Source: Magnetococcales bacterium (lineage in GTDB: Bacteria; Pseudomonadota; Magnetococcia; Magnetococcales; Magnetaquicoccaceae). From it: 47,335 nucleotides of DNA. Below, in pieces: positions 41,079 through 43,117 of the stretch. The stretch covers positions 1-47,335 of the forward strand of contig JADGAR010000028.1 of NCBI GenBank assembly GCA_015231915.1, read 5' to 3'. A program made the position numbers and the translations under genes. Within the stretch, counting starts at the first letter, position 1, and each line of letters opens with the position of its first letter. Below the pieces are notes generated by a model. The model ran no database searches. It saw nothing but the letters and a program-made list of their open reading frames with translations, and was not told the DNA's origin.

Positions 41079-42734
41079 CTATGGCGCGATGCGGTGCATC
41101 GCGGCCAGAATGGCCAGGAGCGAAGCGGTGACGATATTGGCGTCGCAACCGACTCCGAACGCGCGCTCACCGCTGTTGTTGGCCAGTTCCACGAATGCCG
41201 CTGCCTGCGCCGATGCATCGGGTGCCAGGGCGTGTTCCTCGTAATGGAGCAGACGCCACTCTCCCGGCATTCCCCGGATGGCGGCGTCCACCGGGCCATT
41301 GCCCTCGCCGGTGCCTTGCCATGGGGCGCCCTGCCAGAGCAGCCGCAATGCCATGCGGGTGCGTCCGGGGGCGATTTCGCGCATGCGCCATTTGCGCAGC
41401 ATGGCCCTGGCGGCAGGGGGCTGATAGGTGGCGTGGAAGAGTTGCGTCACCTCGTTGGCGCTCAGTTCCCGTTCGCCCGCTTCGCAGGCGCGCTGCACCA
41501 GGAGGGCGAATTCCACTTGCAGGGGACGGGGCAGGGTCATCCCGGTGGCCCGTTCCACCACGAAGGCCGCTCCCCCCTTGCCGGATTGGGAGTTGACGCG
41601 GATCACCGCCTCGCGGCTGCGTCCCAGGTCCGCCGGATCCAATGGCAGATAGGGCACCTCCCAGATGCCGCCTGTTTCCTTCCATGCGGCCAGCCCCTTG
41701 CGGATGGCATCCTGATGGGAGCCGGAAAACGCGGTGAAGATCAAGCTGCCGGCATAGGGATGGCGCGGGGGCACACGCATGCCGGTACAGTTTTCGTATG
41801 TCCGTGTCACGGCGTCGATGTCGGCAAAGCGCAAGCCCGGATCCACCCCCTGGGTGTGGAGATTGAGGGCCAGGGTGATCAGGTCCACGTTGCCGGTGCG
41901 CTCGCCGTTGCCGAACAGGGCGCCTTCCACCCGCTGCGCCCCGGCCATGAGGGCCAGTTCGGCGGCTGCCACGGCAGTGCCCCGGTCGTTGTGGGGATGG
42001 ACCGAGAGAATCACCGCCTCCCGGCAGGAGAGGTGATCCCCGAACCACTCGATCTGATCCGCGTAGCGGTTGGGGGTGGCCACCTCCACGGTGGCGGGGA
42101 GGTTGAGGATCACCGGGTTGGCGGGGGTGGGACGCCACACCTCGCAGACGGCCTCGCAGACCGCGAGGGCGAACTCCGGTTCTGTGGCGGAGAAGCTTTC
42201 CGGGGAGAACTGGAGCCTCCATTGCGTTTCGGGGTGACGCGCGGTCTCCTCCAGGGCATATTTGGCCCCTTGCACCGCCATTTGGATCACCCCGGCGCGA
42301 TCCAGTCCGAACACCAGTCGTCGTTGTGCCGGGTTGGTGGAGAGATAGAGATGGAGAATGGCGCTGTGCGCCCCGTGCAAGGCCGCGCAGGCGCGTCGGA
42401 TGTGGTCCTGGCGGGCCGGGGCGAGCACCATGACGGTGACATCCTCGGGCACCGCCTGCTCCTGGATGAGACTTTGCACGAAGTCGAATTCGGGTTGGGA
42501 TGCCGACGGGAACCCCACCTCGATCTCCCGGATGCCGCAGGTCACGAGTGTTTGAAACAATTGGCGTTTTTGTTCCGGAGGCATGGGGACGGGCAGGCTC
42601 TGGTTGCCATCCCGCAGGTCGATCCCGCACCAGATGGGGGGCTTTTGGATGACCTGGTCCGGCCAACGCCGGGCAGGAAGAGCAATCGGGGGGGCTGGAC
42701 GGTATTTTTCGGCAATGCGGGTGGCATTCAACAT
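41079..42734 (-). CDS. leuA: 2-Isopropylmalate synthase (type 2)
   Basis: The 551-residue protein is of the longer, actinobacterial-like LeuA type: RRWPDQVIQKPPIWCGIDLRDGNQSL, GFPSASQPEFDF, HPHNDRG (metal-binding HxH), GNGERTGNVDL, and a C-terminal leucine-feedback domain from about residue 430. It condenses acetyl-CoA with 2-oxoisovalerate, the first committed step of leucine synthesis. The ATG at 42734 has AGGGAG 9 nt upstream; the open frame to 42782 is not needed. The roughly 350-nt leader carries a leucine-codon attenuator (see the separate entries), so expression should rise when charged leucyl-tRNA is scarce. Confidence 0.95.
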   Translation of the reverse strand: MLNATRIAEKYRPAPPIALPARRWPDQVIQKPPIWCGIDLRDGNQSLPVPMPPEQKRQLFQTLVTCGIREIEVGFPSASQPEFDFVQSLIQEQAVPEDVTVMVLAPARQDHIRRACAALHGAHSAILHLYLSTNPAQRRLVFGLDRAGVIQMAVQGAKYALEETARHPETQWRLQFSPESFSATEPEFALAVCEAVCEVWRPTPANPVILNLPATVEVATPNRYADQIEWFGDHLSCREAVILSVHPHNDRGTAVAAAELALMAGAQRVEGALFGNGERTGNVDLITLALNLHTQGVDPGLRFADIDAVTRTYENCTGMRVPPRHPYAGSLIFTAFSGSHQDAIRKGLAAWKETGGIWEVPYLPLDPADLGRSREAVIRVNSQSGKGGAAFVVERATGMTLPRPLQVEFALLVQRACEAGERELSANEVTQLFHATYQPPAARAMLRKWRMREIAPGRTRMALRLLWQGAPWQGTGEGNGPVDAAIRGMPGEWRLLHYEEHALAPDASAQAAAFVELANNSGERAFGVGCDANIVTASLLAILAAMHRIAP

Positions 42735-42868
42735 CGCTGTAAACTCCCTGGAGGTCGGTGAACGAAAGCGGAGGCAAGACAATCACGGTCGCCAATGCCC
42801 AACCGGGCCATGTGCTGGCGACCGTCATGCAGTCGTCGGGTTTGCGGCAAGTCACGCAGTGGATTCAT
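42728..42868 (-). CDS. Possible upstream ORF overlapping the leuA start
   Basis: This frame encodes 46 residues (MNPLRDLPQTRRLHDG...) after GGGAG with an 8-nt spacer. Its TGA comes one nt after the leuA ATG (ATGTTGA), a geometry often seen in translational coupling. It lies between the attenuator terminator and leuA and contains six leucine codons, not enough to call it a second leader peptide. It may be chance; no homologue is known to me. Confidence 0.3.
   Translation of the reverse strand: MNPLRDLPQTRRLHDGRQHMARLGIGDRDCLASAFVHRPPGSLQRC
42785..42825. repeat. Strong hairpin in the leuA 5' untranslated region
   Basis: Arms ACGGTCGCCA (42785-42794) and TGGCGACCGT (42816-42825) pair perfectly; inside, ATGCCC (42795-42800) and GGGCCAT (42805-42811) extend the stem with bulges around an AACC loop. 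It lies about 50 nt upstream of the leuA ATG, downstream of the attenuator. No T-run follows on either strand. A role in mRNA stability or in translation of leuA is possible. Confidence 0.55.
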
Positions 42869-42907: not shown

Positions 42908-42941
42908 AAAAAAAAGGCCACGAGTCTTGCGACTCATGGCC
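42908..42941 (-). terminator. leuA transcription attenuator (intrinsic terminator)
   Basis: In the leuA direction the RNA forms GGCCATGAGTC-GCAA-GACTCGTGGCC (11 bp with one G-U pair) followed by eight U. The 3' arm shares a 9-nt sequence (GACTCGTGG) with a site inside the leader peptide gene (43015-43007), so that site can pair with the terminator's 5' arm (CCATGAGTC) and block the terminator. A separate small stem GGGG-AAAT-CCCC (42962-42973) lies between. Confidence 0.9.
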
Positions 42942-42985
42942 TTGAAAAGATCGGGACGGCAGGGGATTTCCCCAGAGAGAGATTT

Positions 42986-43081
42986 TTACCGTTCTTTGCC
43001 CTTCGACCACGAGTCATCGCCTGGCCACGGCAGTCGTAGCAGGGGCAGTCGGATCGCGAGCAGGGAGAGGTGGCTGTTCAT
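42986..43081 (-). CDS. leuL: Leucine-rich leader peptide of leuA
   Basis: A 31-residue peptide, MNSHLSLLAIRLPLLRLPWP and then GDDSWSKGKER, contains seven leucine codons, four of them at positions 12-17 including a CTA. The gene ends 45 nt before the attenuator stem. Leader nt 67-75 (GACTCGTGG) lie 16-24 nt past the last Leu codon: a ribosome stalled for lack of Leu-tRNA leaves them free to form the antiterminator, and a ribosome reading on to the stop codon covers them. There is no ribosome site in front of the ATG; the promoter position suggests a leaderless start. Confidence 0.85.
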   Translation of the reverse strand: MNSHLSLLAIRLPLLRLPWPGDDSWSKGKER

Positions 43082-43088
43082 GGAATCA

Positions 43089-43117
43089 GGATTACCACAT
43101 TCCGCATCGTTTGTCAA
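43089..43117 (-). promoter_or_regulatory. Promoter of the leuA leader transcript
   Basis: A perfect TTGACA (43117-43112) is followed after 17 nt by TAATCC (43094-43089), with TGTGG just upstream, offering a partial extended -10. Transcription would start within a few nt of 43082, that is, at or next to the leader ATG (43081). The -10 hexamer is weak, so the exact start is an estimate. Confidence 0.6.

Follow-up and report, generated by a model that had tools for sequence, protein, structure and literature searches.

The classical enterobacterial leu and trp attenuators combine regulatory codons, competing 2:3 and 3:4 hairpins and a U-tract terminator. Leaderless leucine leaders are known in Streptomyces and other Actinobacteria, including before leuA (PMC8079986). 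In S. lividans the leuL1 leader that precedes leuA is leaderless, encodes 15 residues and has no typical terminator; the leuL2 leader before leuS has a hairpin and a U stretch (PMC8079986). The C. glutamicum leuA gene is preceded by a leader peptide (PMC4046766), and actinobacterial leuA regions have been described as a pseudoknot LEU element, not as a classical attenuator (PMC1262725). In C. jejuni a Leu-rich LeuL with an upstream ribosome-binding site lies before leuA, and transcription ends soon after the stop codon of the leader (PMC3847290). The S. meliloti trp attenuator (rnTrpL/trpL) has a leaderless ORF and releases a small RNA (PMC10117765).

Here we describe a leader upstream of the leuA gene of a Magnetococcales bacterium, found in a window (the whole stretch of DNA analysed) of 47,335 nucleotides. 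The classical enterobacterial leaders have a 5' untranslated region with a Shine-Dalgarno sequence, whereas the Magnetococcales leader is predicted to have neither. It shares with actinobacterial LeuL a leucine-rich leader before leuA, and the S. lividans transcript is leaderless, as this one is predicted to be. In contrast to the 15-residue LeuL1 of S. lividans, however, the Magnetococcales ORFs have 29-33 codons and a strong terminator, and the antiterminator segment (segment 2) lies within the ORF. The actinobacterial LEU element has no obvious terminator, whereas the Magnetococcales leader has one, and the stem of the LEU element, in which the Leu run pairs with the leuA Shine-Dalgarno sequence, is absent in the window species and shows no covariation in its relatives. 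C. jejuni LeuL is likewise a Leu-rich leader before leuA but differs in its upstream ribosome-binding site. The original prediction for this DNA had likened the start to that of the leaderless Sinorhizobium trpL, an apt likeness (the S. meliloti attenuator is leaderless; PMC10117765), although that leader is a tryptophan leader with known trans activity and this one is a leucine leader. Calling the start unusual was too strong, as leaderless leucine leaders before leuA had already been reported in Actinobacteria (PMC8079986). Rfam 15 gave no family at the gathering score for the window and 19 related loci, and our search of the open-access literature found nothing on attenuation in Magnetococcales. 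The order is a new lineage for a known type of control.

Results

Anatomy of the leuA leader

The gene on the far side of the leader promoter is divergent and therefore the leader must have its own promoter. The features of the locus are as follows.

43112..43117, minus strand: -35 element TTGACA, 36 nt before the leader ATG at 43081
43089..43094, minus strand: weak -10-like element TAATCC, preceded by TGG; spacer 17, 7 nt to the ATG
42986..43081, minus strand: leuL, 31-codon leader ORF, predicted to be leaderless; seven Leu codons and no ribosome-binding site
43046..43051, minus strand: site of the rare Arg codon CGA that lies between Leu codons, leader nt 31-36
43020..43043, minus strand: segment 1, hairpin overlapping the Leu codons, from folding
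43005..43015, minus strand: segment 2 (GACTCGTGGTC), inside the ORF, antiterminator partner of segment 3
42931..42943, minus strand: segment 3, the terminator 5' arm and antiterminator 3' arm
42908..42926, minus strand: segment 4 (terminator 3' arm) and U8 tract
41079..42734, minus strand: leuA, 2-isopropylmalate synthase, yeast-type (NF002991 / TIGR00970 relative)

The leuL ORF reads MNSHLSLLAIRLPLLRLPWPGDDSWSKGKER up to its stop codon, and its Leu codons begin at nt 13, 19, 22, 34, 40, 43 and 49 of the leader. The sequence GACTCGTGG occurs twice, once within the ORF (nt 67-75) and once in the 3' arm of the terminator (nt 156-164); either copy can pair with CCATGAGTC (nt 143-151). The terminator (42943-42908) is a 13-bp hairpin of AAGGCCATGAGTC and GACTCGTGGCCTT closed by a GCAA loop, with a folding energy of -23.2 kcal/mol, and is followed by a U8 tract (T8 at 42915-42908). 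The competing 2:3 duplex has 11 bp and -18.6 kcal/mol. The original prediction had named the TTGACA element and the 31-codon ORF with its seven Leu codons, and both proved exact to the base; the 9-nt repeat in the leader and the terminator 3' arm, their shared pairing partner and the U8 tract were likewise where it had put them, and we found no convincing Shine-Dalgarno sequence before leuL, as it had held. Its description can be refined: segment 2 falls within leuL, a further hairpin upstream of it overlaps the Leu codons, and the -10 element of the window species is poor.

We conclude that this leader is very probably a ribosome-mediated transcription attenuator of leuA, the peptide of which would be translated from a leaderless or nearly leaderless transcript. 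We infer each of its working parts: the start site, leaderless initiation, stalling and read-through. Transcription would begin at most about 2 nt from the AUG, and a ribosome would load directly on the 5' end of the transcript. With charged Leu-tRNA the ribosome would reach the stop codon (nt 94) and cover segment 2 (nt 67-77), so that segments 3 and 4 would pair and transcription would end at the U8 tract after about 174 nt. If Leu-tRNA is scarce, the ribosome would stall on the Leu block (nt 13-51) and leave segment 2 free; 2:3 pairing would then allow polymerase to continue into leuA.

Conservation of the leader in the order

Seventeen leaders from the order were gathered by a pattern that included the TTGAC of the -35 element and were aligned, and a covariance model was built from them. 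The model gave 20 full-length matches in the order (E <= 4.3e-21) and, among 299 genomes drawn from the phylum, no leader match of comparable score outside the order. Three of the 20 matches (G006, G009 and G011) had no part in building the model; each carries the Leu block and a terminator, with TTGAC lying 37-38 nt upstream of the ATG. The G009 and G011 leaders precede leuA; the sequence downstream of the G006 leader is not a recognisable leuA, the sole exception among the 20 strong matches (leuA confirmed in 19). The carriers of the leader span four families. In the sister species (G001), the LeuA of which is 90% identical, the leader region has 83% DNA identity, and the promoter, the ORF, each of the seven Leu codons and the three pairing segments are retained. 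The original prediction had staked itself beforehand on conservation of the Leu codons among relatives, and these codons are conserved in about 20 genomes, including the three held-out ones. The reading of the leader as a leucine attenuator is supported by about 20 related genomes, three of them held-out, at the level of sequence.

Several other observations were made in these genomes. Magnetochrome domains were found in all 48 genomes of the order that were searched, the window's own included, and in none of 14 control genomes. A yeast-type LeuA match (E <= 1e-100) was missing in 17 of the 48, and several same-genus genomes without it have only a distant LeuA-like protein that is about 30% identical. 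One genome has a second, truncated leucine leader (L144, G035:C62:3078-3165) about 1.3 kb upstream of the intact copy, with an ORF between the two. Two weaker model matches, L146 (G037:C269:12676-12837) and L147 (G041:C1:6051-6205), have Trp codons (..VWKN..GLWGW), a terminator and TTGAC about 36-38 nt before the ATG, and sit upstream not of leuA but of a predicted membrane transporter that is EamA/DMT-like by eye. A lineage-wide leaderless habit for amino-acid operons was considered and rejected, there being no such trpE or ilvB leaders in the loci of the order that we examined.

Pairing of the competing segments

In the alignment 97.6% of the cells of the 3:4 helix were paired and eight pairs had two-sided changes, a covariation score reached by none of 500 shuffles. 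The 2:3 helix had 75.9% of its cells paired (34-44% when slid) and its covariation was modest, 19 of 500 shuffles reaching the score. The equivalent of the segment 1 hairpin was paired in 81% of cells, compared with 41-45% when slid. The compensatory changes that the original prediction had proposed to look for in the pairing segments are strong in 3:4 and partial in 2:3. The 9-nt repeat, the conservation of which it had also expected, is kept less uniformly than the Leu codons: a 2:3 duplex of -9 kcal/mol or better was found at the homologous site in about 12 of the 17 leaders, often with different letters, but four (L089, L091, L100 and L101) have no good 2:3 pairing there. In L095 the 2:3 pairing is in a different register.

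When a ribosome was placed on the last Leu codon, segment 3 paired with the late part of the ORF at a mean probability of 0.74 versus 0.29 for leaders with shuffled middles, the highest shuffled mean in 60 rounds being 0.51. The pairing score of zero with the ribosome at the stop codon arises solely from the masking of segment 2. Swapping the terminator arms between species gave no discrimination, as the arms are alike. In the window species the antiterminator was predicted to form without a ribosome, before segment 4 emerges, and so an untranslated transcript might read through in this model; in several relatives it was predicted not to form in the untranslated leader. A short Leu-rich ORF upstream of leuA and an intrinsic terminator between the two, as in attenuators, are present. 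The mutually exclusive antiterminator, left free by a ribosome on the Leu codons, is present also, though not uniformly across the relatives.

A second small ORF between the terminator and leuA

Downstream of the terminator the window contains a second small ORF.

42728..42868, minus strand: second small ORF (MNPLRDLPQTRRLHDGRQHMARLGIGDRDCLASAFVHRPPGSLQRC, then stop), with Shine-Dalgarno sequence GGGAG
42786..42824, minus strand: conserved hairpin inside the second ORF (arms CGGTCGCCA / TGGCGACCG)

The second ORF is present in 15 of the 17 relatives having leuL (alignment A2 comprises the window and 14 relatives) and its TGA stop codon overlaps the leuA start (ATGTTGA) in the window, an overlap found in nearly all carriers. 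In the other two leaders, L089 and L097, leuA comes directly after the terminator. The sequence CGACT is invariant in the second ORF, where the rare Arg codon CGA recurs between Leu codons. The hairpin had 91.7% of its cells paired versus at most 59% when slid, and none of 500 shuffles reached its covariation score. A model of the second ORF gave no match in 80 leuA loci from other groups, and that its LRL-G-R motif resembles leaders elsewhere is an impression. Translational coupling and a second leucine sensor are both possible roles. We raise only tentatively the idea that leuA is under two tandem leucine-sensing leaders, a leaderless attenuator and then one led by a Shine-Dalgarno sequence, which together would control read-through and translation. 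If so, leucine would set both the read-through and the translation of a single gene.

The second ORF also bears on whether control is mainly translational, as in the proposed actinobacterial LEU element, with the second ORF and its hairpin gating the leuA ribosome site and the terminator acting as a basal brake. Such control would account for the Shine-Dalgarno sequence, invariant CGACT, covarying hairpin and overlapping stop codon of the 15 carriers, and in about half of these CGACT is able to pair with AGTCG at the leuA Shine-Dalgarno sequence. However, the CGACT:AGTCG stem shows no covariation and is missing in the window species, the second ORF is absent from L089 and L097, which do carry the leader, predicted to be leaderless, and its terminator, and the Leu codons cluster in the first ORF. 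We therefore regard mainly translational control as unlikely.

Promoter and predicted start of the transcript

The TTGAC element lies 35-38 nt before the leader ATG in all 17 aligned relatives, which were chosen on a pattern containing it, and the same spacing holds in all 20 strong matches, three of which were chosen independently of the pattern. The best -10-like hexamer was at a spacer of 17-18 in nearly all of the 17 aligned leaders. The G001 leader has its best-scoring -10 at spacer 15, with TAGTCA at spacer 17, 7 nt from the ATG. The hexamers of the relatives are (T/C)ANNAT-like and mostly 6-8 nt before the ATG. The window hexamer TAATCC matches the consensus poorly, though its position is conserved. 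Shine-Dalgarno sequences were not convincing in most of the 17 leaders, and the weak G-rich stretch present in four would, provided that the promoter is correctly assigned, coincide with its discriminator or adjoin it. The best reading of these sequences is that transcription starts at the AUG or within about 2 nt of it, and about 20 related genomes support this predicted leaderless start.

The attenuator could also work without being leaderless, if the true start were further upstream and the ORF were initiated without a Shine-Dalgarno sequence. The weak -10 element of the window would fit such a start, and the leaderless 5' end is itself a prediction. Nevertheless, 20 leaders drawn from four families all keep TTGAC 35-38 nt from the AUG and mostly have the (T/C)ANNAT-like hexamer 6-8 nt before it, which makes a more distant start quite improbable.

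Regulatory codons and drift of the leader peptide

Over codons 5-18 of the 17 leaders 78 of 238 codons (33%) specify Leu, whereas the Leu share of the corresponding LeuA genes is 8.7% (binomial p about 1e-25). The Leu codon CTA makes up 11 of the 92 leader Leu codons but only 1 of 795 in the LeuA genes and none of 290 in eight window genes. Between close pairs, most substitutions in the ORF alter the amino acid. The leader retains its frame and its codons although the peptide sequence drifts, as would be expected of the predicted cis-acting leader. Given this substitution pattern a conserved trans-acting peptide is unlikely. The anatomy does predict a discrete leaderless RNA having a strong terminator, and this RNA, about 174 nt long, or the peptide that it encodes might also act in trans, as do Sinorhizobium rnTrpL and peTrpL; we consider this very unlikely, as the mostly amino-acid-changing substitutions show no conservation of the peptide sequence.

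Several Leu codons in a short ORF are nothing unusual, but an ordinary terminator preceded by a chance Leu-rich ORF is scarcely credible, since the ORF start, Leu block, spacing and terminator are conserved over four families, and conservation in the sister species, Leu enrichment and 3:4 covariation make the leader more than chance.

The Arg codon of the Leu-Arg-Leu block is CGA in 16 of the 17 aligned leaders and in all three held-out leaders, whereas CGA is rare elsewhere, accounting for 2% of the Arg codons of eight genes in the window and for 8% of those of the LeuA genes. Some leucine leaders elsewhere in the proteobacteria contain the block CTxCGACTx as well; in the sequences preceding 80 leuA genes it was found nine times in the sense orientation and never in the antisense orientation, with 2.6 occurrences expected. 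A stem between CGACT and the Shine-Dalgarno sequence was rejected as an explanation of the CGA codon; about half of the relatives fit, the window species does not and there is no covariation. The near-invariant CGA is outside the reach of every mechanism proposed here.

Discussion

Leu-rich, leaderless-looking small ORFs were also seen before leuA in Pseudomonas, Steroidobacter-like, Granulosicoccaceae and alphaproteobacterial records (L002, L005, L008, L009, L011, L013, L014, L016, L029, L030, L048, L057, L071, L076, L078 and L102). These ORFs have a -10-like hexamer 6-8 nt before the ATG and mostly no U-tract terminator. One of them, L008 from an alphaproteobacterial MAG, has two tandem leucine leaders upstream of leuA, like the window, MNTPSCKRFLSLLLTGPAS and a second that contains ALLSLRLRAGRRV. 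As there are many such proteobacterial leaders and none of those tested had an Rfam match, leaderless leucine control of leuA seems to be under-annotated.

The near-invariant rare CGA codon and the second conserved small ORF pose specific questions open to testing, and the leader offers a clean case in which to ask how a ribosome that loads on a bare 5' AUG keeps up with the polymerase. For the magnetotactic bacteria, these about 20 genomes would extend to them leaderless leader-peptide attenuation, as predicted from their leuA leaders.
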